Shown here: positions 10,891-49,423 of the stretch, in pieces | How the letters are laid out: every line of letters begins with the position of its first letter | How positions within the stretch are numbered: the first letter of the stretch is position 1 | NCBI GenBank assembly: GCA_949299165.1 | Contig: CASFZJ010000008.1 | Coordinates: 1 to 55,224, forward strand | Direction of reading: 5' to 3' | Length of the DNA stretch: 55,224 nt | Origin: an uncultured bacterium | Lineage (GTDB): Bacteria; Bacillota_I; Bacilli_A; RFN20; CAG-826 | Translations under genes and position numbers: made by a program | The notes under the pieces: model-generated | Database searches by the model: none | Told to the model about the DNA's origin: nothing | Seen by the model: only the letters and a program-made list of their open reading frames with translations

Positions 10891-10933
10891 AACTTTTTCT
10901 TTTTTTTGAAATTTTTTTAACATTTTTCGAATT

Positions 10934-10969
10934 AATCTCCTTCGTAATAAGTGAAAGGAGATTTTTTTA
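10934..10969 (+). terminator. Intrinsic terminator after rnhB (first of three hairpin copies)
   Basis: AATCTCCTT (10934-10942) pairs with AAGGAGATT (10955-10963), followed by seven T. It probably ends the rbgA-rnhB transcript. Confidence 0.85.
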
Positions 10970-10972
10970 TTT

Positions 10973-10990
10973 ATGGTTAACAAAGAATAG
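10973..10990 (+). other. Conserved five-codon mini-ORF, unit 1
   Basis: ATG GTT AAC AAA GAA TAG (peptide MVNKE). The second unit has MINKE at 11453-11470. AAAGGAG ends 12 bases upstream, at the same distance as the SD of dprA in the partial third copy. It may be a leader peptide or a vestige of a duplicated dprA start; no function is known. Confidence 0.35.
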
Positions 10991-11098
10991 GGACAAGAGC
11001 TAAAGTCCTAAAAACTCCTTATTTGCAATGCAAATCTATTGATTTTCAAAATGGTTTATTTCGCCTAATTTGCACGTATGTGAAAGGAGGTGATTAAA

Positions 11099-11179
11099 AT
11101 GGAAATGGTAGTTATTTTGTTGCTATTAGTGATCCTAGTTTCGGTTATAAAAAAAGATGACCGCGATGAAGATCGCTAA
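11099..11179 (+). CDS. 26-residue membrane peptide, unit 1 (putative type I toxin)
   Basis: The ORF encodes 26 residues: MEMVVILLLLVILVSVI (one transmembrane stretch) then KKDDRDEDR, a highly charged tail. AAAGGAGGTGAT (11083-11094) is a full-length match to the anti-SD end of 16S rRNA. CTCCTT at 11015-11020 could mask this site, and a minus-strand promoter at 11201-11228 would give an antisense RNA across the gene. Size and layout resemble type I toxins (Fst/TxpA class), but the sequence matches none I recognise, and toxicity is inference. The sense promoter was not identified. Confidence 0.65.
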   Translation: MEMVVILLLLVILVSVIKKDDRDEDR

Positions 11180-11200
11180 TCATCACTAATCACCGAATTC

Positions 11201-11228
11201 ATTGTAAACCAAATTTGTTAAAAAGCAA
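11201..11228 (-). promoter_or_regulatory. Antisense promoter, unit 1
   Basis: On the minus strand TTGCTT (11223-11228), 16 bases, TACAAT (11201-11206). The second unit has TTGCTT, 16 bases, TAGAAT, while the spacer itself differs, as expected for a selected promoter. Transcription would start near 11194, 15 bases past the peptide stop, and run back across the peptide gene, its SD and the variable leader. The 3' end of the antisense RNA is unclear. Confidence 0.6.
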
Positions 11229-11415
11229 TAGCGGTTAAAGAAAAAACTGAAGTCAAACTTGAGGAACGGCTTATCAATGTGCGCCTCTTGATATCGATTA
11301 CGCGTTATCGTTGGCACAATAAATTTCAGGAAAAAATTGTGCTTTAAAAGTTCGTTCCTTTCCTTAATAAAATTTTTTAACTTTTTTGAAATTTTTTTTA
11401 ACATTTTTCGTTTTC

Positions 11416-11448
11416 ATCTCCTTCGTAATAAGTGAAAGGAGATTTTTT
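11416..11448 (+). terminator. Intrinsic terminator between cassette units
   Basis: ATCTCCTT (11416-11423) pairs with AAGGAGAT (11436-11443), followed by a T-run; near-identical to the hairpin at 10934-10969. Confidence 0.8.
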
Positions 11449-11578
11449 ATTTATGATTAACAAAGAATAGGGACAAGAGCTAAAGTCCTAAAAACTCCTT
11501 ACTTGTGTTATAAGTCGCTTGCTTTTAGCGATAGTTTGTTACTTCGAATTTACACTTTTGTGAAAGGAGGAAGTAAAT

Positions 11579-11659
11579 ATGGAAACTGTTGTTATTTTAT
11601 TGCTACTAGTGTTCCTAGTTAAGGCTATAAAAAAAGATGACAACGATGAAGATCGTTAA
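11579..11659 (+). CDS. 26-residue membrane peptide, unit 2 (putative type I toxin)
   Basis: Paralogue of the peptide at 11099-11179, also 26 residues: METVVILLLLVFLVKAI followed by KKDDNDEDR. AAAGGAGG at 11563-11570 precedes the ATG. Hydrophobic changes are conservative and several codon differences are synonymous (GTG/GTA-type and TTA/TTG changes), consistent with selection on the protein. Anti-SD CTCCTT (11495-11500) and the antisense promoter (11678-11705) are placed as in unit 1. Confidence 0.65.
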   Translation: METVVILLLLVFLVKAIKKDDNDEDR

Positions 11660-11677
11660 TCATCCCACAGCTATTTC

Positions 11678-11705
11678 ATTCTAAACTATTTTTAGCAAAA
11701 AGCAA
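11678..11705 (-). promoter_or_regulatory. Antisense promoter, unit 2
   Basis: Minus strand TTGCTT (11700-11705), 16 bases, TAGAAT (11678-11683); predicted start near 11671, 12 bases past the peptide stop codon. Same geometry as unit 1. Confidence 0.6.
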
Positions 11706-11893
11706 GACGGTTAAAGAAAAAACTGAAGTCAAACTTGAGGAATGGCTTATCAATGTGCACCTCTTGATATCGATTACGCGTTATCGTTAGCACTAATAAA
11801 TCACGGGAAAAAATTGTGCTGTAAAAGCTTGTTCCTTTCCTTAATAAAAATTTTTTTACTTTTTTTCAAAATTTTTTAACATTTTTCGTTTTC

Positions 11894-11920
11894 ATCTCCT
11901 TCGTATTAAGTGAAAGGAGA
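11894..11920 (+). promoter_or_regulatory. dprA: Hairpin enclosing the dprA ribosome-binding site
   Basis: The third hairpin copy, ATCTCCTT (11894-11901) with AAGGAGA (11914-11920), has lost the long T-run. Its 3' arm contains GGAG, the only SD-like sequence before the dprA ATG (11931), so folding would hide the site. In units 1 and 2 the same hairpin is followed by T-runs and acts as a terminator. Confidence 0.5.
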
Positions 11921-11930
11921 ATTTATATTT

Positions 11931-12722
11931 ATGGCATGTAGTGCAAAAGACGTATTAGGGGCACTTTCATTCAAACATGATGGATGTTGGGAAAGAATCT
12001 ATACCGCTTTAAAAGACAAACAGATGTTAAAAAACGAAGAAATTGAAAATTTATCTTCAAAGATTTCATCCAAATATTTTTATATGACCTCAAGCGAATA
12101 TCCTCGTTTCCTCATTAATGAATTAAATTGCCCACCAATCGTTGTTTATTATAAAGGTGATTTATCTATATTAAATAAACGCGATGAATTTCATTATATT
12201 GGCATTGTCGGATCCAGAGATGCATCTGATTATGGAAAAAAAGCAGTGCGCGACATTGTAAAAGAACTTCCTAAAGAAACAATTATTGTAAGCGGCCTAG
12301 CAAAAGGGATTGATGCATGTGCTCATACCGCTGCAATGGATTATGGTTTAAAAACGATTGCAGTTTTAGGAAATGGAATCGATTACATTTATCCAAGTGA
12401 AAACAAAGATATATATGAAAGAATTCTTGATCAAGGAGGACTTATTTTAAGTGAATATCCAAATCTTGTTAAGCCAAAACCTGATCAATTTATATTCCGT
12501 AATCGAATAGTGGCTTCAATTAGTGAATTTTTGTTAATTGGCGAAGCACACGAAAGAAGCGGAAGTTCAACCACTGTAAACTTTGCTCTTCAAGCAGGGA
12601 AAAATATTGGTTGCGTACCTTATCCAATAGGCACGAAAAGTCTATGTAATCGTTTAATAAAAGATGGCGCAGCTTTAATTGAATCAGCAAGCGACATCAT
12701 GTTTGAACTCGGGAGGAAATAG
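11931..12722 (+). CDS. dprA: DNA processing protein DprA (Smf)
   Basis: DprA (263 residues) loads RecA on incoming single-stranded DNA during transformation. The Rossmann-like core includes IGIVGSRDASDYG, IVSGLAKGIDACAH, AVLGNGIDYIYP, LILSEYPN and FIFRNRIVASIS. ATG 11931 is chosen; GTG 11910 lies inside the hairpin. No C-terminal winged-helix domain is evident, so the protein is shorter than many DprA. Position before topA matches B. subtilis smf-topA. Confidence 0.93.
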   Translation: MACSAKDVLGALSFKHDGCWERIYTALKDKQMLKNEEIENLSSKISSKYFYMTSSEYPRFLINELNCPPIVVYYKGDLSILNKRDEFHYIGIVGSRDASDYGKKAVRDIVKELPKETIIVSGLAKGIDACAHTAAMDYGLKTIAVLGNGIDYIYPSENKDIYERILDQGGLILSEYPNLVKPKPDQFIFRNRIVASISEFLLIGEAHERSGSSTTVNFALQAGKNIGCVPYPIGTKSLCNRLIKDGAALIESASDIMFELGRK

Positions 12723-36405: not shown

Positions 36406-36782
36406 ATAGTTAAAAAGTATCAAAACGGTTATTAAACGGCATTCAATTAAAATGATTAAATGTTTTAGTGGTTGATAAGGTTTTTACGTGTTAAACGTTC
36501 AGAAATTTTCGATTTTTTACTCTATTTATGTCGAAATCAGGCATGTTTTGCGTTAAAATACAGATAATGTTTTAAAATAAAGTTATGTTTGGTTGTAAAA
36601 AAATATTAAAAAAAAGCGAATTATCTAATAAGACATGATTAAGACAGGGCGATTATTTAACTCATGTTTATTTAAGACATCCAAAACCTAGATATTGCAA
36701 TTGGATTTGAATTTAATAATAAAATAGTCGCTCTTTAGTTAGAATGCCACTTAAATTGGTGAACATTAATGAGGTGAACAGA
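36406..36782 (+). other. Intergenic region upstream of the restriction operon
   Basis: No gene. A possible promoter, TTGCAA (~36694) with TAATAA 16 bases on, lies ~65 bases before hsdM; GAGGTG precedes the hsdM ATG. An in-frame ATG at 36744 lies upstream of this SD. Confidence 0.4.
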
Positions 36783-38840
36783 ATGAGTGATAAGCTTAAT
36801 ATAAATGAACAAGTACAAATGATTCTTGATATTGCTAATCAGCTTAGAGGACCATTTAAGGAAGATGAATACCAAAATGTTATTATTCCTATGACTATCT
36901 GCAGACGCTTTGAATGTATATTAGACGAAACAAAAGAAGATGTACTCAAAGAATATGCTAATGGTGAAAGAAACGAAAAAGCTCTCAAAAGAATTAGTGG
37001 TTTTAGTATTTATAATACATCGAAATTCACCTTGTCAAATTTATTAAACGATTCTCAAAATTTGAAAAGTAATTTTAAAGATTACTTAGAATCTTTTAAT
37101 AGCATAGCTTTTAATATTTTTTCTCAGATGAAGTTTTTTGACACTATTGAACAAATGGACAAAGGGAAAAAACTTTATGTTGTTATTAAGAAATTTGCTA
37201 ATACTGATTTAAGTGTAGAACATGTTTCTTCAATGCAAATGGGTTATATCATGGAAGAAATTATTCGAACATACTCTGAAAATGCAAGTGCTGGTGATCA
37301 CTTTACACCAAGAGAAGTTATTAGATGTTTGACCCAACTTTTACTTGCTGAAGGCTGTGATGATTTATACGAAGACGGAAAAATAGTAACTTTGGGTGAT
37401 TTTGCTTGTGGTACTGGAGGCATGTTATCTGAAGGCTACCGCATGATTAAGGATTTGAACAGTGACACTAAAGTTGCTTTATACGGTCAAGATAATAATG
37501 GTTGGTATGAGGGCATCGCTCAAGCTGAAATGATTATCAAAGGACAAGATCCTGAAAATATAAAACTTGTCACAAGTACACTTACTACGGATCCTTTCCC
37601 AGATAAGAAAGTTAGATTGATTTTGATGAATCCTCCTTTTGGATTAAGTTATGCTAAAAAAGAAATTGGTGATGATGAATATAAAAAGATAATCGAACAA
37701 AACAAAAAAGGCGGTTGGTATGAAGGTGGTCTTCCTGGAACTGGTGACTCACAAATGCTATTTTGGCAATATGCACTTAATAAATTAGATGACAATGGAA
37801 GAGCAGCTATCATTTGTAATGCATCACCTTTATTTAGTGGCGGTTCATCAAGTGGCGAATCATCTATTCGTAAATGGATATTTGAAAATGACTGGGTTGA
37901 AGCGATTATTCAATTTTGTCCTGAACTTTTCTATAACACGGGCATTTCTATTTACTCGATTATTTTTAATAAAAACAAATCAGAAAGAAGAAAGAATAAA
38001 ATTCAATTGATAAATGCTTCTTCTATTTTTACAAGAATGAACAAGGGCTTAGGCTTTAAGAGAAATAAAATCTCTGAAGAATCAAACAATAACCAAATCG
38101 CTAAAATTGTAAAGTTGTATGCTGATTTTGACAAAGCGGATCCTAGTATGTCTAAGATATTTTCTAAGGAAGATTTTTACTACCGAGAAGTAGCAATACA
38201 ACAACCATTCCAACGTAACTTTAAAATATCTTTAGATAGAATTGATAACTTAAACTCTAGCAATGCTTTTAATAAACTTTATGATGAAGATAAATATCAA
38301 GAATTAGATGAACAAGCATCCAAAACCCAAGCTCAATTAGATTTAATGAGCGAGATGCTAAAAGGTAAAGAATATCAAGAAAAGATCGTTGATACATTAA
38401 AAACTAACGTTAGTGATAAAGTTTATTTAAATAGAGATGAATTTACTAAATATATTATTTCTTTGCTTCCTGAATTAAGTGATAAGAAGCAAGCGTCATT
38501 ATTAAAAGGTATTGTATTAGCCTTATCCGAACATGATGAAAACGCAGATACTTATAAAAACAAAAAAGGAATATACGAGCCAGATAGCGAATTAAAGGAT
38601 ACGGAGTTGATTCCTTATAAAGAAGATATCCATGAGTATTTTGATCGAGAAGTAAAACCATTCCTTCCTTTAGCATGGATGGAAGATGACGAAGATAAGA
38701 TTAAGGTCGGTTGTGAAATTAATTTCAATAAATATTTCTATGTATATCATGAGCCTGAATCAAGTGATGATATTTTAGAAAGACTTAAAAAGTTATCTGA
38801 AGAAGAAAAAGAGTTGGAGAGTGAATTATATGGAGAATAA
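36783..38840 (+). CDS. hsdM: Type I restriction-modification methyltransferase subunit HsdM
   Basis: HsdM (685 residues) methylates adenine in the recognition site and forms the M2S core. The N-terminal HsdM_N domain precedes the SAM-binding DFACGTGGMLSEGYR near 206 and the catalytic motif LMNPPFGLSY near 282. The end carries a coiled, acidic tail. ATG 36783 is fixed by GAGGTGAACAGA. First gene of hsdM-hsdS-hsdR-TIR; hsdS starts inside its last 11 bases. Confidence 0.96.
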   Translation: MSDKLNINEQVQMILDIANQLRGPFKEDEYQNVIIPMTICRRFECILDETKEDVLKEYANGERNEKALKRISGFSIYNTSKFTLSNLLNDSQNLKSNFKDYLESFNSIAFNIFSQMKFFDTIEQMDKGKKLYVVIKKFANTDLSVEHVSSMQMGYIMEEIIRTYSENASAGDHFTPREVIRCLTQLLLAEGCDDLYEDGKIVTLGDFACGTGGMLSEGYRMIKDLNSDTKVALYGQDNNGWYEGIAQAEMIIKGQDPENIKLVTSTLTTDPFPDKKVRLILMNPPFGLSYAKKEIGDDEYKKIIEQNKKGGWYEGGLPGTGDSQMLFWQYALNKLDDNGRAAIICNASPLFSGGSSSGESSIRKWIFENDWVEAIIQFCPELFYNTGISIYSIIFNKNKSERRKNKIQLINASSIFTRMNKGLGFKRNKISEESNNNQIAKIVKLYADFDKADPSMSKIFSKEDFYYREVAIQQPFQRNFKISLDRIDNLNSSNAFNKLYDEDKYQELDEQASKTQAQLDLMSEMLKGKEYQEKIVDTLKTNVSDKVYLNRDEFTKYIISLLPELSDKKQASLLKGIVLALSEHDENADTYKNKKGIYEPDSELKDTELIPYKEDIHEYFDREVKPFLPLAWMEDDEDKIKVGCEINFNKYFYVYHEPESSDDILERLKKLSEEEKELESELYGE

Positions 38841-40071
38841 TAAATATGCTTCACAAGCTCAAAATTCTTTTCAATTAAAACGTTTTAAATATTGCTATAC
38901 ATCATCTCATGCAGGAATGGTTATTGATAAATCATGGTGGAACGAGGGAAAAGAACTACTTTACACTTGCCAAGAAACTCCAATGATGTCTAGTTTTAAC
39001 AAGTTTCCAAAGAATCTAAAAACAAAATCCACAGATCTGTTATTAACTAGGAACGCAACTCCATATATATTTATTCCAGAAGTTGGTTCAATTTTTAGTA
39101 ATGTAGTTCAAAAAGTTACAATTAATACTAAAAATTATTCAATTAAATTTTTGCAATATGCTTTATCATATGCCACAGAGTCAGTCAAAGCTAACGGAAA
39201 CACTATTCCAAGTTGGAATATGCAAATTTGGGATAATTTATATCTCCCCTTGCCTGATATCCAAAAACAAAAACAAATAGCCGATTTTCTTGATGATAAG
39301 GTTGGAAAGATTGAAAAATTAATAGAATTATATAGAAATAAGATTGCAGAAATGAATAATTTTAAATTTCAATTAATTAGCAAAGTCGTTAGTACTGGCT
39401 TAAATGTTGGCGTTTGCTATAAAAATACTGGAAATATTTGGATACCTAAAATACCTAAGCATTGGTGTTTAAAACGTGCAAAATATGTGTTTGATGTTTT
39501 AAATAAAGGAAACGGAATAACAAAAGAACAGGTTTATGAAAATGGTGATACACCATGTATTAGGTATGGTGAAATTTACACGAAATATAACTATGGTTTT
39601 TTTGATACTTATTCAAGAACAAATAAAAAAGAAATTGATTCTGTAAAAGTTGCTCATTATGGCGACATTTTATTTACTGGAACCGGAGAATTAATTGAAG
39701 AAATTGGTAAAAATGTTGTTTATTTGGGGAACGATAGTATTTTAGTGGGTGGCGATATTATTATCGGAAAACATCATCATAATCCTATTTTTTTAAATCT
39801 CGCTCTTCTTTGTCCTTTATCTCAAGAGCAAAAAGGCCGCGGAAAAAGCAAATTGAAAGTAGTGCATATTTCTGCAGCTGAAATTGGAAACATAATTTTG
39901 CCTGTTCCTCCTAGAAATGAGCAAGATGCTATAGCTGATTATTTAAATAAAAAAATAAAAATTATTGAAAGTATTACGAATAAATATAACGAAAAAATTA
40001 GTACATTAAAAAAATACAAAAAATCTCTTATCTATGAATATGTCTCTGGCAAAAAGGAGGTTACTTTATGA
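38830..40071 (+). CDS. hsdS: Type I restriction specificity subunit HsdS
   Basis: HsdS (413 residues) reads a bipartite target with two recognition domains (about 1-150 and 205-365). Each is followed by a conserved spacer helix: LPLPDIQKQKQIADFLDDKV near 138-157 and LPVPPRNEQDAIADYLNKKI near 357-376. ATG 38830 is preferred over GTG 38821 because GGAG lies at 38815-38818. It overlaps hsdM by 11 nt and hsdR by 4 nt. Target sequence cannot be read from the protein. Confidence 0.95.
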   Translation: MENNKYASQAQNSFQLKRFKYCYTSSHAGMVIDKSWWNEGKELLYTCQETPMMSSFNKFPKNLKTKSTDLLLTRNATPYIFIPEVGSIFSNVVQKVTINTKNYSIKFLQYALSYATESVKANGNTIPSWNMQIWDNLYLPLPDIQKQKQIADFLDDKVGKIEKLIELYRNKIAEMNNFKFQLISKVVSTGLNVGVCYKNTGNIWIPKIPKHWCLKRAKYVFDVLNKGNGITKEQVYENGDTPCIRYGEIYTKYNYGFFDTYSRTNKKEIDSVKVAHYGDILFTGTGELIEEIGKNVVYLGNDSILVGGDIIIGKHHHNPIFLNLALLCPLSQEQKGRGKSKLKVVHISAAEIGNIILPVPPRNEQDAIADYLNKKIKIIESITNKYNEKISTLKKYKKSLIYEYVSGKKEVTL

Positions 40072-43000
40072 GTTTAGCTGATTTAACACAACTTAATGAA
40101 AGAAATGGATTTCAAAAAGTATTCTTGCATCATTTAATTAATGATAATGGTTTCGTTCAAGGACTTAATTCCAACTATGACAAAACCTATGCAATTGATA
40201 AAAAATATCTTTTTGGATACCTTTCAAATAGTCAACCTAAGGATTTTGCGAAACTAATTAAAGTAAAAAACTATGAAGTTGAGTTTATAAAATATCTTAG
40301 AGAAGAAATCCATAAACGTGGGTTGCTTGATGTTTTAAGAAATCAAGTAAAGTTTTATGGTGCTCATTTTGATATGCTTGGAGCAATTCCTCATAATGAC
40401 TTTGGTGAAACAACAAAACTTAAGTATCAATCAAATATTTTTAGTGTTACCGAAGAATTAGAATACGAAAATGTAGTTGATGAACAATCTCAATCTAAAC
40501 GAGGAGATCTAACATTATTCATTAATGGAATACCTATTATTTGGTTTGAACTTAAAAGTAATGCAAGTGGTCAATTTTGCAAGGACGCAATAGAACAATA
40601 TAAGAAGACCAGAAATCCTAATGAACCAGTTTTTAAGTTTAAAGAAGGTTGTTTAGTATTCTTTGCTATGGATCATGACGAAGTTGCCTTTACCACTAAA
40701 TTAGCAAAAGATGATACTTTCTTCATGCCTTACAACAAAGGCGTCAATAAAAGAAAAGGCAATCCTGAGGTTAAAGACAACATTAAAACTTCCTATATGT
40801 GGAGGGAAATTTTAACTAAGGATAATATCCTTGAGTGGTTGACTGAATACTTAGTTTTAGAAGTAAAAGAGGAAAAAGGATATAACAACAAGAAAAAGAA
40901 AACTGAAAGAATCATATTTCCTAGATATCACCAATTTAATGAGGTCACGAGAATTATTGAAGATGTGAGAAAAAAGGGTGTATCAGGCCAAAATTATTTA
41001 GTTATGGATAGTCCTGGAAGTGGGAAGACTTATTCCATAGCTTGGCTTGCTCATCATTTGGCTAACTTGCACGATACAAATAACAATAATATCTACGATT
41101 CGGTCATCATTATTACTGATAGATTGGTTGTTGATTCTCAGCTTCAAGATGCGATGCTAAGAATTCCGCATGAAGAAGGTGAAGTAACTGTCATGGATGA
41201 TGATGCTAGTTCTAGTGATTTGTCAGATGCGATTAATAATGGCGATAAGATTATTGTCTCTACTATTCAAAAGTTCTCTTATATTTTAGCCAAAGTCAAT
41301 CCTAATAAAGACAAACACTACGCTATCATCATTGATGAATGTCATTCTTCAACTAAAGGTAATTATATCGCCAACACGACCAAGGCTTTATCTGCGGAAG
41401 AAGCTAGAAAAGAAGATGAAGCTAACGATAATAAAGATGGGCAAGATGATATCAATGATGCTATCGAAGAAGATATCGCAAGGACTGGAAAACAAGGAAA
41501 TATAACTTTCTTTGGTTTTAGTGCTACTCCTAAAAAGAAAACACTGGAAAAATTTGGAACTAAATCAACTGATGAAGAAGGTAAAACCTTAAGCGCTCCA
41601 TTTACTTGTTATTCAATGCAGCAAGCGATTGATGAAGGTTTTATTTTAGATGTTTTAACTAATTACACAACTTATGAAACGTATTTTAAAATTAATAAAA
41701 TAATCAAGGACAATCCTGAATTTAAAAAAGCTAAAACTCAAAGAGCCATTTATCGTTATGCTATGCTTCATCCAACTAACATTAAGCAAAAGATAGAAAT
41801 CATCATGGAGCATTTTATGGATCATGTGATGTTTTTGCTTAATGGTGATGCTAAAGCGATGGTTGTTACTGATAGTAGAGAAGCCGCGGTTAAATATAAA
41901 TTAGCATTTGATGAGTATATAACCGAACATAACATTGAAAATATAAAAGCTCTAGTAGCTTTTACTGGAAAGTTGAAGATAAAAAGTTATGGCGATAAAG
42001 AGTTTAGTGAGCCTAAGTTAAACGAAATGCCCGAGAAAGAAACAAAAGACGCGTTTAATACATCCGAATATCAAGTTTTACTTGTAGCAAATAAATATCA
42101 AACTGGTTATGATCAACCATTACTATGTGCGATGTATGTTGATAAAAAATTAGATGGAATTAATGCTGTTCAGACTTTAGGAAGGCTTAACAGAGTTTAT
42201 CCAGGTAAAGAAGGAAATATCTTTATTCTAGATTTTAGAAACACATATGAAGATATGAAGGATGCTTTTGCTCCTTATTACGAAGATTTAACTTTAGTTG
42301 GTGAAACAGATCCTAATAAAGTTTACGATCTTGAGCGAAGGATTGATTTATATAATCTGACTAATCAATATGACATAGAAGAATTTGTAAAAATTGCGTT
42401 TAAAGAAAAAATAACAGATAGAGATAAAGAAAAATACTATAGCTATCTTTCTAAAGCAGAAAGCTTTTATCACAAAATTGCTGATGAAAAAGAACGAAAA
42501 ACACTAAGGAAAACTATAAAAATGTTTGTTGAATCCTATTCTTGGATAATCCAAACAACTGTTTTTGATGATCCCGAATTACATAAAAAATGGATTTTTT
42601 ATAAAGCATTAAGCAAGCGTCTATCAGGAGATAGCGACCCATCTATTGACCCTTCAAAACTAGTAGAAGTTACTAAGATAAAGCAAAAGAAAATTAAAGT
42701 AATTAAAGTTTCAAAAGCTAATATTGAGCCTATAACAATCACTAAAATTGGAAATGTCAGCATTACAGTTAATCCAGAAGATTTATTTGCTAGTATTGAT
42801 GAATTAATTAAAGAACTTAATGAAAGATTTGGGAAAGAATTCGATACTGACTCAACTTCCGGTATAATCATTGGATTAATAAGAATGCTAGGCGAAGACG
42901 AAGAAGTTAGAAGAAGAGCGCAAGCAAATGATCCTGACCTATTTAGAGTTTTTTTAAAAGAGAAAATTGATGATGTTTTATTTAAAGGTAGAAACAACAG

Positions 43001-43148
43001 CGTTAAATTCTATAGATATATGCTAGATAACGAGGATGCTGAAGATGCTTTACTTTCTTATTTAAATAATATTATTTACAATGAAGCTAGGAAGAAAATT
43101 GATGACTACAACCGAGAACTTCTAAACGAAAAGGAATTTGATAAATGA
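40068..43148 (+). CDS. hsdR: Type I restriction endonuclease subunit HsdR
   Basis: HsdR (1026 residues) translocates and cuts unmodified DNA. The N-terminal nuclease has the D...ExK pattern in RGDLTLFINGIPIIWFELKS (residues ~145-164). The SF2 motor shows DSPGSGKTYS (Walker A, ~314), IIDECHSS (motif II, ~420), FFGFSATP (motif III) and QTLGRLNRVYPG (motif VI). AAGGAGG precedes the ATG, which overlaps the hsdS stop (ATGA). The TIR gene starts in its own stop by the same 4-nt overlap. Confidence 0.96.
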   Translation: MSLADLTQLNERNGFQKVFLHHLINDNGFVQGLNSNYDKTYAIDKKYLFGYLSNSQPKDFAKLIKVKNYEVEFIKYLREEIHKRGLLDVLRNQVKFYGAHFDMLGAIPHNDFGETTKLKYQSNIFSVTEELEYENVVDEQSQSKRGDLTLFINGIPIIWFELKSNASGQFCKDAIEQYKKTRNPNEPVFKFKEGCLVFFAMDHDEVAFTTKLAKDDTFFMPYNKGVNKRKGNPEVKDNIKTSYMWREILTKDNILEWLTEYLVLEVKEEKGYNNKKKKTERIIFPRYHQFNEVTRIIEDVRKKGVSGQNYLVMDSPGSGKTYSIAWLAHHLANLHDTNNNNIYDSVIIITDRLVVDSQLQDAMLRIPHEEGEVTVMDDDASSSDLSDAINNGDKIIVSTIQKFSYILAKVNPNKDKHYAIIIDECHSSTKGNYIANTTKALSAEEARKEDEANDNKDGQDDINDAIEEDIARTGKQGNITFFGFSATPKKKTLEKFGTKSTDEEGKTLSAPFTCYSMQQAIDEGFILDVLTNYTTYETYFKINKIIKDNPEFKKAKTQRAIYRYAMLHPTNIKQKIEIIMEHFMDHVMFLLNGDAKAMVVTDSREAAVKYKLAFDEYITEHNIENIKALVAFTGKLKIKSYGDKEFSEPKLNEMPEKETKDAFNTSEYQVLLVANKYQTGYDQPLLCAMYVDKKLDGINAVQTLGRLNRVYPGKEGNIFILDFRNTYEDMKDAFAPYYEDLTLVGETDPNKVYDLERRIDLYNLTNQYDIEEFVKIAFKEKITDRDKEKYYSYLSKAESFYHKIADEKERKTLRKTIKMFVESYSWIIQTTVFDDPELHKKWIFYKALSKRLSGDSDPSIDPSKLVEVTKIKQKKIKVIKVSKANIEPITITKIGNVSITVNPEDLFASIDELIKELNERFGKEFDTDSTSGIIIGLIRMLGEDEEVRRRAQANDPDLFRVFLKEKIDDVLFKGRNNSVKFYRYMLDNEDAEDALLSYLNNIIYNEARKKIDDYNRELLNEKEFDK

Positions 43149-43969
43149 TTTTTATTAGCCATTCATCCAAGGATATAGAATTAGTTGAACTTTTTAATCA
43201 ATTTTTAACGTCTTTAGGTATAAAAAAAGAAGATATTTTTTGCAGTTCTCTAAACGGACAAGGTGTTAATAATGGGGCGAGAATTACAGATGTAGTATTA
43301 GATTATTTAAAAAAATCAAACCTTATCATTTATTTAGTTACTAATAATTTTCTTAAAAGCCCATATTGTACTCAAGAATTAGGCATAGGCCGGTCATTTA
43401 GTAATGAGGAGAGTATTTTTATATTGAAAGCAGAAGATGTAAAAATAGAAGAGATAAAAGGCTTCGTTTCGTCCGATTATAAATATTCTTTGATTGATTC
43501 TAATGGTTTAAGCGAACTATGTGATAGGGTTGCGGACTTGGGATATGAAATGTCCAACAAACATAAAATTATTAATGATTCAATAAATCATTTTTTAAAT
43601 TCCGCAAAGAAAGTTGTATCTATTTTGATAGAAACCAGGGATTTAACAGATGATGAAGCAAATAGGAAATTAGTGGAGAACTTGGAAAAACAATATGATA
43701 ACCTTGCCAATGGGGCGAAAGTTATACTTGCGAACATATATTTTTCTAATGACGGAGTTTGTTACTATCAAATAAATAATGGCGTTGTTCAATCTCTTAC
43801 TGATAAACACTTTATTAGACGTGTTACAACCGTATCGACAGGATATTTTTCTTTTGCATATGAATTACAACCATGGGCTTTTGAGTTTATAAAAAGAAAT
43901 TCTACCGTTCAGGAAGAGTTGAAAAATATAATCAAGGATAAACCCACTCCAACTGTTCCAGAGTGGTAA
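43145..43969 (+). CDS. TIR-domain protein in the type I restriction operon
   Basis: A 274-residue protein with an N-terminal TIR domain (1-~135): MIFISHSSKDIELVELFNQF, then DIFCSSLNGQGVNNGARI, and LKSPYCTQELGIGRSF, whose Glu near 78 is in the position of the catalytic glutamate of NAD-cleaving TIRs. The C-terminal ~130 residues include a probable winged-helix-like region (LANIYFSNDGVCYYQINNG). ATGA overlap with hsdR places it as the fourth coupled gene, so it is probably made together with the restriction complex. Role as NADase effector or sensor is inference. Confidence 0.85.
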   Translation: MIFISHSSKDIELVELFNQFLTSLGIKKEDIFCSSLNGQGVNNGARITDVVLDYLKKSNLIIYLVTNNFLKSPYCTQELGIGRSFSNEESIFILKAEDVKIEEIKGFVSSDYKYSLIDSNGLSELCDRVADLGYEMSNKHKIINDSINHFLNSAKKVVSILIETRDLTDDEANRKLVENLEKQYDNLANGAKVILANIYFSNDGVCYYQINNGVVQSLTDKHFIRRVTTVSTGYFSFAYELQPWAFEFIKRNSTVQEELKNIIKDKPTPTVPEW

Positions 43970-46016: not shown

Positions 46017-48029
46017 ATGAAAAAAAGTAAAATTTTATTAGCTCTTTCATTAGTAAGTTTACTTACTGGATGTGGCGCACCTCAGCAAGGTGAAAATAAC
46101 AATAATAACCAACAACAAGTAATTAATGGAAAAGATGGAGTTGGCATTAAATCAATCACATTAACCGGAACTGAAGGAAATGTAGATATTTATACGATTA
46201 CTTATACTGATAATACAACTTCAATTTTTAAAGTGACTAACGGAAAAGATGGTGCACAAGGAATACAAGGCGAGTCAGGGAAAGATGGTGTAACACCTAC
46301 TATTGAAATTGGTGAAAATGGTAATTGGATTATTAATGGAGAAGATTCAGGAATTAATGCTAGTGGTACTAAAGGCGATAAAGGAGATAAAGGCGACACT
46401 GGCGAACAAGGTCCACAAGGTGAGAAAGGTGAGACTGGTGAAAAAGGAGAAACTGGTGATCAAGGCCCAAAAGGTGATAAGGGTGATACCGGAGAAAAAG
46501 GAGAACAAGGTCTTCAAGGAGAAAAAGGTGATAAAGGTGAGACTGGCACTGGCATAGAAAAAATTGAACATACTGATTCCAGCGATAATATTGATACTTA
46601 TACGATTTATTTCACGGATGGGACAACAACTACATTTACGATAACTAACGGAACTGATGGTTCTCAAGGCGTGTCTGGAGAAGACGGAAAATCTGCTTTT
46701 GAAATTTATAAAGAATATTATCCAGAGTATCAAGGCACTGAAGAAGATTGGATAAATGATGTTATAAATGGTGAGTTCAACAAATTTAAAGTAACCTTCG
46801 ATGCAAATGGTGGCAAATTACAAAAAGAAACTCAAATTGAAGTTAAAAAAGGTCTTGCTATCGGTGAAGCTCTTCCTGTTCCAACAAAAGAAGGAAAAAA
46901 ATTTTTAGGTTGGTTTACGGGTTGGAGTGCAAACGACATTCAAATTACAGTAAATACACCCATATATGCAGATTTAAACTTAGTTGCTAAGCGGGATACT
47001 TACGATGTTGACTTCATGAACTTTGATGGAAGTGTATTTGAAAGTTTTGATGTTAAACATGGTGAATTAGCATCTAAACCTTCTAAAGAGCCTACTAAAC
47101 CAACTGATGAAAATCACTCTTATTATTTCGAACATTGGGATTTTGATTTTTCCCAAAAAATTTATTCAGATATTCACATTAATCCAATACGGGATGAGAA
47201 AGAACCTGTTTATACTATTGAATTTGGCTCTTATCCTCAATCTGTAGTAAGTGATGAGACTTTAAAAGCGGAACTTGCTTCACTTGAAAACGGGACTGTT
47301 AGTGGAACTATTTTAGAATATGATTCTGATGGAGATAAGATTGCCGAAAGATATTTATGCCAAAAAACTGTAATACAAGTGAGAGCGGATGATGGGACAA
47401 AGATAGAGGCTGGAATAAATTATTTTAAATATGAACCAATTGAATGGAGAATTTTATCGCAAGATTCATCATCATATTTTGTAGTTTCACAAAAAGTTCT
47501 GGATCAACTACCTTGGGATAGTAAAGGGTATCTTTATGAAGATCCGGAAACTTATCAAAAAATATGGATATACAATAATTACGAAAAATCTGAGGTTAGA
47601 ATGCGGTTAAACGAAACATTTTTGAATACTGCTTTTACTGATGAGGAGCAACAGAAAATATTTACTACTTTGGTAGATAATACTATTGATTCAACATTAG
47701 ATGAAACAAATGAATATATATGTAGTGATACTGAAGATAAAATTTATCTATTAAGTAAAAAGGAAGCAACTATTTTCTTGGCTACAACAAATACTTTAGA
47801 TGACAACGAAAATAGAGTAGCAAAAGCAACCGACTATGTAAAATCTATGGATGTTACTGGTTTATCGACTGAAATCGATTCGTATGGTAATTGCGGTTGG
47901 CGGCTTAGGTCACCTTTTTACAAATATCAGAGTGAAGTGTATTTAACATACTATGATGGACATATTGGGGCAACTAGTGGTACTGGGAATCGTTATGGTA
48001 TCCGTCCTACAATGCATATAAGTTTATAA
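46017..48029 (+). CDS. Collagen-like surface lipoprotein with DUF6273-like C-terminus
   Basis: A 670-residue lipoprotein: signal peptide with lipobox LLTGC (Cys19), an Asn/Gln-rich linker, GKDG-containing beta repeats, a Gly-X-Y collagen-like run (~116-180, about 20 triplets such as GDKGDTGEQGPQGEK), two Listeria-Bacteroides-type repeats (VTFDANGG...FLGWF near 260-310; YDVDFMNFDG...FEHWDF near 325-375) and a C-terminal domain from ~395 (EFGSYPQS, WRILSQDSSSYFVVS, CGWRLRSP, GIRPTMHISL) typical of a formylglycine/C-type-lectin-like fold. Probably exposed and adhesive. Promoter spacer contains G9. Confidence 0.85.
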   Translation: MKKSKILLALSLVSLLTGCGAPQQGENNNNNQQQVINGKDGVGIKSITLTGTEGNVDIYTITYTDNTTSIFKVTNGKDGAQGIQGESGKDGVTPTIEIGENGNWIINGEDSGINASGTKGDKGDKGDTGEQGPQGEKGETGEKGETGDQGPKGDKGDTGEKGEQGLQGEKGDKGETGTGIEKIEHTDSSDNIDTYTIYFTDGTTTTFTITNGTDGSQGVSGEDGKSAFEIYKEYYPEYQGTEEDWINDVINGEFNKFKVTFDANGGKLQKETQIEVKKGLAIGEALPVPTKEGKKFLGWFTGWSANDIQITVNTPIYADLNLVAKRDTYDVDFMNFDGSVFESFDVKHGELASKPSKEPTKPTDENHSYYFEHWDFDFSQKIYSDIHINPIRDEKEPVYTIEFGSYPQSVVSDETLKAELASLENGTVSGTILEYDSDGDKIAERYLCQKTVIQVRADDGTKIEAGINYFKYEPIEWRILSQDSSSYFVVSQKVLDQLPWDSKGYLYEDPETYQKIWIYNNYEKSEVRMRLNETFLNTAFTDEEQQKIFTTLVDNTIDSTLDETNEYICSDTEDKIYLLSKKEATIFLATTNTLDDNENRVAKATDYVKSMDVTGLSTEIDSYGNCGWRLRSPFYKYQSEVYLTYYDGHIGATSGTGNRYGIRPTMHISL

Positions 48030-48485: not shown

Positions 48486-48758
48486 TTACTTACTTTTTAG
48501 ATCATCATGCATTACTTTACTTGCTTCAAGAAAGCCATTTAAAACACTTTTATAATGTTTCTTATATTCTTCGTTTTTAATCTTACTAAGGTTCTTTTCT
48601 AGTATTGAATTTTCTCTATTTTGATCATGAGTAGGGAAATTATGTTCTTCTTTATAGCGACTAATAAGTTTAACCATATTCATTCTTTTTTCGTATAATT
48701 CGATGATTTTTTCGCCAATCTCATCAAGAGATTTGCAATACATATCAAGTTTTTCCAT
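48486..48758 (-). CDS. Chorismate mutase (AroQ type), duplicate copy
   Basis: A 90-residue AroQ-class chorismate mutase domain: SLDEIGEKIIELYEKRMNMV, KLISRYKEEHNFPTHDQNRE and a helical end. The conserved Arg (EKRM), Lys (YKEEH) and Asp-x-x-Arg-Glu positions are present. It is ~90% identical to the copy at 49145-49423. GGAGATCAG precedes the ATG. Upstream it is fused to a truncated copy of the transporter end, so it is a segmental duplicate; expression is uncertain. Confidence 0.8.
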   Translation of the reverse strand: MEKLDMYCKSLDEIGEKIIELYEKRMNMVKLISRYKEEHNFPTHDQNRENSILEKNLSKIKNEEYKKHYKSVLNGFLEASKVMHDDLKSK

Positions 48759-49120: not shown

Positions 49121-49157
49121 TTTTTGCCAAAAACCTTGCAAATCTCAAATATTTTTC
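49121..49157 (-). repeat. Copy of the ~30-bp interspersed repeat
   Basis: On the minus strand ATTTGAGATTTGCAAGGTTT continues to TTGGCAAAAAATCC. It overlaps the last codons of the chorismate mutase at 49145-49423 and matches 28 of 30 positions with the dxr copy. Confidence 0.7.
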
Positions 49158-49423
49158 ACTTTTTTATCATCTTGCATTGCTTTACTTGCTTCAAGAAAGC
49201 CATTTAATACACTTTTATAATATTTTTTATATTTTTCGTTTTTAATCTTACTAAGATTTTTTTCTAGCATTGAATTTTCTCTATTTTGATCATGAGTAGG
49301 GAAATTATGTTCTTCTTTATAGCGGCTAATAAGTTTAACTATATTCATTCTTTTTTCATATAGTTCAATGATTTTTTCATCAATCTCATCAAGAGATTTG
49401 CGATACATATCAAGTTTTTCCAT
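49145..49423 (-). CDS. Chorismate mutase (AroQ type)
   Basis: A 92-residue monofunctional AroQ-type chorismate mutase, converting chorismate to prephenate. SLDEIDEKIIELYEKRMNIV, KLISRYKEEHNFPTHDQNRE and the C-terminal helix with FLEASKAMQ correspond to the three helices; active-site Arg, Lys, Asp and Glu/Gln positions appear filled. It lies 14 bases after the transporter in an operon with a U32 peptidase. No other aromatic pathway gene is in the window. Confidence 0.85.
   Translation of the reverse strand: MEKLDMYRKSLDEIDEKIIELYEKRMNIVKLISRYKEEHNFPTHDQNRENSMLEKNLSKIKNEKYKKYYKSVLNGFLEASKAMQDDKKVKNI

Follow-up and report, generated by a model that had tools for sequence, protein, structure and literature searches.

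The rnhB–dprA interval in the 55,224-nucleotide stretch of DNA analysed here (the window; contig C8 of a 1.43-Mb genome that is 98% complete) holds two tandem units of ~480 bp, 84% identical to each other, and each unit is probably a competence-linked type I toxin-antitoxin-like module, in which an antisense RNA would restrain a membrane peptide. The order of parts is the same in both: a ~55-bp element ending in a Shine-Dalgarno (SD) sequence, a five-codon ORF, a leader of ~105 nt, a strong SD, a 26-codon ORF, a minus-strand promoter and a structured block.

Tandem genes for putative 26-residue membrane peptides

Positions 10891-11400 align with 11371-11877 (84% identity, E 5e-152), which bears out the tandem repeat of the preliminary description; a third recurrence at 11853-11934, before dprA, consists of the promoter part alone. 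The two putative toxin ORFs lie on the plus strand at 11099-11179 (MEMVVILLLLVILVSVIKKDDRDEDR) and 11579-11659 (METVVILLLLVFLVKAIKKDDNDEDR) behind the SD GAAAGGAGG, as described at the outset, and each encodes 26 residues with one hydrophobic run and a mixed-charge tail.

Between unit 1 and its paralogue on contig C6, we counted 13 synonymous and 14 non-synonymous differences. Random change would be expected to yield 3.9 synonymous ones, a count of 13 was reached in 0 of 5000 simulations, and ~39% of the random change sets contained a stop. Units 1 and 2 are too close in sequence for such a comparison, and their synonymous excess was not significant (P 0.30). Note that the paralogous peptides are 31-38% identical, with hydrophobicity and charge retained. 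These codon patterns indicate that the peptide is a real product, small, hydrophobic, preceded by a ribosome binding site (RBS) and constrained at the protein level, as in type I systems.

Pfam and NCBIfam gave nothing above cut-off for the peptides, neither Fst nor any other family, with sub-threshold matches only. Hol_Tox (PF16935, putative holin-like toxins) matched one paralogue at E 0.041 and 14.2 bits, the curated cut-off being 23.3, and left the window peptides unmatched. A tblastn search of plasmids and phages with the peptide as query returned no match, and Rfam, run over the units, no family at the gathering threshold, with chance-level matches only.

The preliminary description proposed to look for the peptide in relatives, and a peptide profile indeed matched, at E<1e-11, five copies in the window genome and three in G013, a genus-mate. 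The further copies of the window genome are at C6:50327 (MEVVFILLLLVILVKEIKKSDNDENR), C21:8453 (MESVLIILLLILFLRKLKEKDDHNNGRR) and C6:54041 (MIYEILLVIALIFLIKELKNDDRKDHR); one of the three in G013 is an additional tandem copy (MYDVLLAIVLLFLIRELKKDDREDHQ), and a single copy is present in G017. Close cassettes occur in three of the 26 genomes of the genus, and the same layout is seen in weaker relatives, which belong to other genera of the family and, in one case, to another part of the order (L138-L141, L147, L198). Eight copies from two genomes retain the sense promoter, the five-codon upstream ORF (uORF), the antisense promoter and the antisense terminator. In G206, the loci C2:9435 and C20:5693 (L140, L203) encode the identical peptide MEEAILLLLILCILVYMIKKSPSDNNR, and one of them carries on its 3′ side a second tandem antisense promoter-terminator set, whose ORF is not intact. 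A weak DNA match in G005 was dropped, as its locus is unrelated. In G013, rnhB, the element and dprA follow each other without units; because the rnhB–dprA intervals read in congeners lack them, the units are dispensable.

The element at the head of each unit is shared with competence genes

No sense promoter had been found at first, but a candidate exists in the ~55-bp element at the head of each unit, on the plus strand at 10907-10962 in unit 1 (core TTCGTAATAAGTGAAAGGA, 10941-10959) and at 11388-11442 in unit 2 (core 11422-11440). A third copy, at 11866-11921 (core 11900-11918), would serve the neighbouring dprA (DNA-processing protein A; 11931-12722, plus strand; TIGR00732, PF02481). The consensus, TTTTTAACAtttTTcgAATTgAcCTCCTTCGTAwTAagTGAAAGGAG, has 23 sites in the genome and directly precedes dprA, recA (preceded by an ORF that is CinA-like by eye), comEA (identified by TIGR01259/TIGR00426), a ComFA-like zinc-finger helicase gene (named from its layout; Pfam detects the helicase) and a pilus operon containing a T2SSE/ComGA-like ATPase. 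Since it is common to all of these, the element looks like the promoter of a competence regulon, one that the peptide units would share with canonical com genes, and this promoter points to competence as the inducing state.

Most genus members with a readable dprA start have a variant of the element at the dprA SD, and none has units there. In a second genus (g23), the motif sequence differs. In G206, dprA and both peptide genes have TTTTCTTCCTCTATTTATTAAATG in common, and in G215 the shared sequence is CTCTTAGTATAGTGAGG; the peptide-gene promoters of these two genomes gave local-alignment z values of 12-18 against their own dprA and under 6 against those of other genomes. The match to the own dprA promoter is weak or ambiguous in G017 and G214. 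That the promoters co-vary between genera is our strongest reason for placing the peptides in the dprA regulon.

The element also occurs elsewhere in the genome. It stands before the gene of a 61-aa hydrophobic peptide (MGNKIPLSQRELC...) at C3:124143 (L070; ortholog L162), where it is kept in G013, and before a C39-peptidase ABC gene at C3:70712; from their sequences, the two look like a competence-linked bacteriocin set. At C7:48085, C1:66183 and C15:30700 (L064, L069, L075), it precedes ORFs whose products resemble, by eye, transposon proteins of the TnpB type. At C17:4104, C2:53895 and C6:31061 (L068, L077, L080), it precedes the mini-ORF ATGACTTA(A/G) (M-T-stop) and a stretch devoid of long ORFs, and these stretches may possibly be noncoding RNAs of the same regulon.

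A conserved uORF and a predicted 3′ structure

The uORFs of units 1 and 2 read MVNKE* (10973-10990) and MINKE* (11453-11470) on the plus strand. None of the eight copies in the two closest genomes has lost the start codon, stop or SD, all of them following the pattern M(I/V/T)(N/F)(K/E)x*, and the uORF overlaps neither the toxin ORF nor the antisense RNA. Downstream, the leader of unit 1 carries the motif AAAAACTCCTT (11010-11020), with the CTCCTT (11015-11020) that had been proposed as a conserved sequence hiding the toxin SD. Judging from the copy alignment and folds, it could pair with either SD, and the folds of units 1 and 2 pair it with that of the uORF; its sequence is CTCCC or CTTCTT in paralogues. 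The SD-masking proposal thus lacks support in its original form. In predicted folds, the toxin RBS is ~0.6-0.7 paired in all copies, with no common partner. Folds in which the 3′ UTR returns to the start region were inconsistent and were not retained.

The 3′ end of the presumed sense mRNA holds a structured block (11261-11360 in unit 1, 11737-11837 in unit 2), predicted to form a closing stem and three hairpins. Among four copies, both sides are altered at four pairs, and pairing holds in 96.9% of cells, versus 37-48% when the partners are slid. Single-sequence folding z-scores on the plus strand are mixed (−2.5 to +0.6), and the support therefore comes from covariation; with four sequences, two of which are orthologues, we hold this structure with moderate confidence. 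On the sense strand, no T-run follows the hairpin within the ORF, and the transcript would run on into the 3′ block.

A predicted antisense terminator lies within the peptide codons

A promoter-like pair of hexamers, with a spacing of 16-18, lies on the minus strand beyond the stop codon in every copy. The window units have TTGCTT-16-TACAAT (11228-11201) and TTGCTT-16-TAGAAT (11705-11678), exactly as first reported, and the −10 is TATAAT in copies C6a and G013a, TAGAAT in C21 and TATTAT in C6b. Note that many genes have a sequence with a promoter-like score of 8/12 on their downstream side (142 of 363 long ORFs), and the argument for an antisense promoter is therefore one of position and conservation, not of score.

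Some 10-25 bases beyond this promoter, the minus strand encodes a hairpin and then a U-run, together a candidate intrinsic terminator (11149-11184 in unit 1, 11629-11664 in unit 2). In unit 1 it reads GATGATT-A-GCGAT-CTTC-ATCGC-GGTCATC-TTTTTTT, and on the plus strand AAAAAAAGATGACCGCGATGAAGATCGCTAATCATC, which is the KKDDRDEDR codons plus the stop. The charged tail of the peptide thus appears to overlie the antisense terminator, one DNA stretch serving for both. The stop codon is covered by a terminator of this kind in 11 of 16 units versus 2 of 363 long ORFs, and the hairpin is stronger than those of synonymous recodings of the tail (fraction 0.002-0.05 in seven copies and 0.15-0.17 in two, of nine compared).

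The predicted antisense RNAs are ~46 nt (11149-11194) and ~43 nt (11629-11671) long on the minus strand of the window, and 33-46 nt in most copies; L198 has 64 nt, and the length outliers C6a2 and G017 reflect a T-run misplaced by the script. Since it would end at the terminator within the KKDDxDEDR tail codons, the antisense RNA would not reach the SD, leaving the RBS uncovered. Local alignment of the leader against the 3′ region gave no significant second RBS-complementary region (combined P 0.34). The antisense transcript of the preliminary description stands as to its promoter, conserved in position in every copy, and is corrected as to its extent: it is predicted to be short and to end inside the ORF. 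A second antisense terminator in the leader (a stem, then AAGGAGTTTTT) was considered and rejected, with weak energies and no need for it given the terminator in the ORF. By its anatomy, the unit would thus place an antisense gene with its own promoter and terminator opposite the toxin mRNA, as in type I systems.

On C6 and at the orthologous locus of G013, the first unit is decayed: promoter, leader and the N-terminal half of the ORF are gone, and the antisense promoter (TTGCTT-16-TATAAT) and hairpin are retained. The two hairpins differ at six positions with pairing intact throughout, one pair being altered on both sides from C-G to T-A (pairs assigned by eye); the arms GGCGTTAGCG/CGTTAGCGTC versus GATGTTAACG/CGTTAACATC have changed together. 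That a toxin-less copy keeps a paired antisense hairpin suggests selection on the antisense gene itself.

Comparison with known type I systems

The cassettes resemble Fst/par of Firmicutes (pAD1 par, RNA I/RNA II; PMC7472228) in the short hydrophobic peptide with a charged tail, the convergent promoters and a predicted antisense RNA, ~40 nt in length and largely a terminator hairpin, on the 3′ side of the toxin gene, the 33-46 nt predicted for most copies agreeing with the length of RNA II. Unlike Fst/par, the aligned peptides show, by eye, no tryptophan and no P/D/S/TxxxG motif, there is no shared bidirectional terminator, and the cassettes have a competence-type sense promoter and a uORF; direct repeats like DRa/DRb, through which the par RNAs gain complementarity to the RBS region, were not significant between leader and 3′ region (combined P 0.34). 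Because these defining features, where tested, are absent, we do not file the cassettes as Fst.

BsrG/SR4 of B. subtilis has an antisense RNA whose overlap with the toxin mRNA is confined to the 3′ part and which probably acts via decay. TxpA/RatA of B. subtilis (PMC4147584) has the same arrangement, and the cassettes are like it in this respect, with the differences from both systems that peptide and antisense RNA are much shorter here and that the units are not prophage-borne. In E. coli, three of the type I toxins have a link to the SOS response (PMC4147584), and TisB/IstR-1 and DinQ/AgrB are like the cassettes in combining a small membrane toxin with the sense promoter of a DNA-related regulon, SOS there and competence here; regulon, peptide and antisense layout are otherwise different. 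With hok/Sok (PMC4147584), the cassettes have in common a uORF in a structured leader, a structured mRNA and a (here predicted) antisense RNA; unlike in hok/Sok, the five-codon uORF does not overlap the toxin ORF, the antisense RNA lies at the 3′ end and not over the uORF, and the peptide is unrelated. On these comparisons of sequence and layout, the cassettes are best read as a type I toxin-antitoxin variant that is new and linked to competence.

Proposed mechanism and alternatives

In such a module, the competence-type promoter would make an mRNA with a ~150-nt leader containing the uORF, the coding sequence of a 26-residue single-span membrane peptide and a structured 3′ end, and a vegetative-type promoter just beyond the stop would give an antisense RNA of ~45 nt that runs into the ORF and ends at the tail-codon terminator. 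During ordinary growth, this RNA would base-pair with the peptide mRNA over the 3′ half of the latter, which would then decay or be blocked from use; by analogy with TxpA/RatA and par (PMC4147584, PMC7472228), synthesis of the antisense RNA may be constitutive and the outcome of 3′-half pairing may be decay. When the competence regulon is on, the sense mRNA would be in excess over the antisense RNA, allowing synthesis of the peptide. Its character suggests toxicity at the membrane, where it could act to slow or arrest growth during DNA uptake. The type I reading with an unfamiliar peptide, put forward in the preliminary description, gains from the codon-level selection, the position of the antisense promoter and the covarying terminator; the SD masking, as first put, is unsupported. 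The sense promoter, the five-codon uORF, the shortness of the antisense RNA and the structured 3′ block had been overlooked.

The promoter step could be wrong on its own, the type I layout being right and the element being an intrinsic terminator with an SD and no competence link. Many copies do have a CCTCC...GGAGG dyad followed by T-runs, and the element often comes after a gene end; however, strong conservation reaches ~30 bp upstream of the dyad (TTTTTAACATTTTTCGAATTGA), recA has a broken dyad, the element is directed into a start codon or leader, and the dprA version varies within the genus yet stays at the SD, and we consider this explanation unlikely. Antisense control and a competence promoter would suit equally well a non-toxic membrane peptide, made in competence and tuned by the antisense RNA, that modulates a transporter or the uptake complex, but the paralogues have diverged (31-38% identity) and preserved hydrophobicity and charge, the copies are multiple and tandem, and their occurrence is sporadic, all of which is more toxin-like than expected of a fixed partner and makes such a regulator quite improbable.

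We give a low probability to a competence-induced secreted killing peptide (fratricin or leaderless bacteriocin) that hits neighbours, with the antisense RNA as a mere pre-competence off-switch: the peptide has no leader or double-glycine site and consists of 26 aa with a single hydrophobic run and a mixed-charge tail, the unit is without an immunity gene, and the antisense terminator and uORF are like type I toxin control, even though the same promoter precedes the C39-peptidase ABC gene and the 61-aa hydrophobic peptide gene and the S. mutans competence-pheromone system also drives bacteriocin genes (PMC4615949). Finally, the units might be a selfish or decaying repeat spread by recombination between promoter repeats, with the ORF and antisense features as passengers, as the tandem units, one of them decayed, and the unit-free rnhB-element-dprA arrangement of G013 might suggest; the synonymous excess against the C6 paralogue, the compensatory changes in the antisense hairpin and the promoter matching across genera leave this explanation very little room.

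For the competence-linked type I module, we rate at slightly better than even the broader proposal that the units represent a type I toxin family within a natural-transformation programme, driven by the dprA/comEA/recA promoter, with the terminator in the C-terminal codons, and linking competence to self-restraint or killing. In our searches of open-licence full texts, no paper emerged that connects competence with a type I toxin. If the link is true, growth arrest or lysis of competent cells would have a direct explanation in this lineage. In the coding-sequence terminator, one DNA stretch would be selected as peptide tail and antisense terminator at once, an overlap that could make tiny systems of this kind findable by sequence alone in uncultured Bacilli.

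Other features of the window

On the minus strand, 48486-48758 and 49145-49423 are nearly identical chorismate mutase-like ORFs of 90 and 92 aa, which look like a recent tandem duplication. A lipoprotein-like ORF with collagen-like GXX repeats occupies 46017-48029, and a type I restriction-modification-like operon at 36744-43148 is followed by an ORF that is TIR-like by eye (43145-43969).
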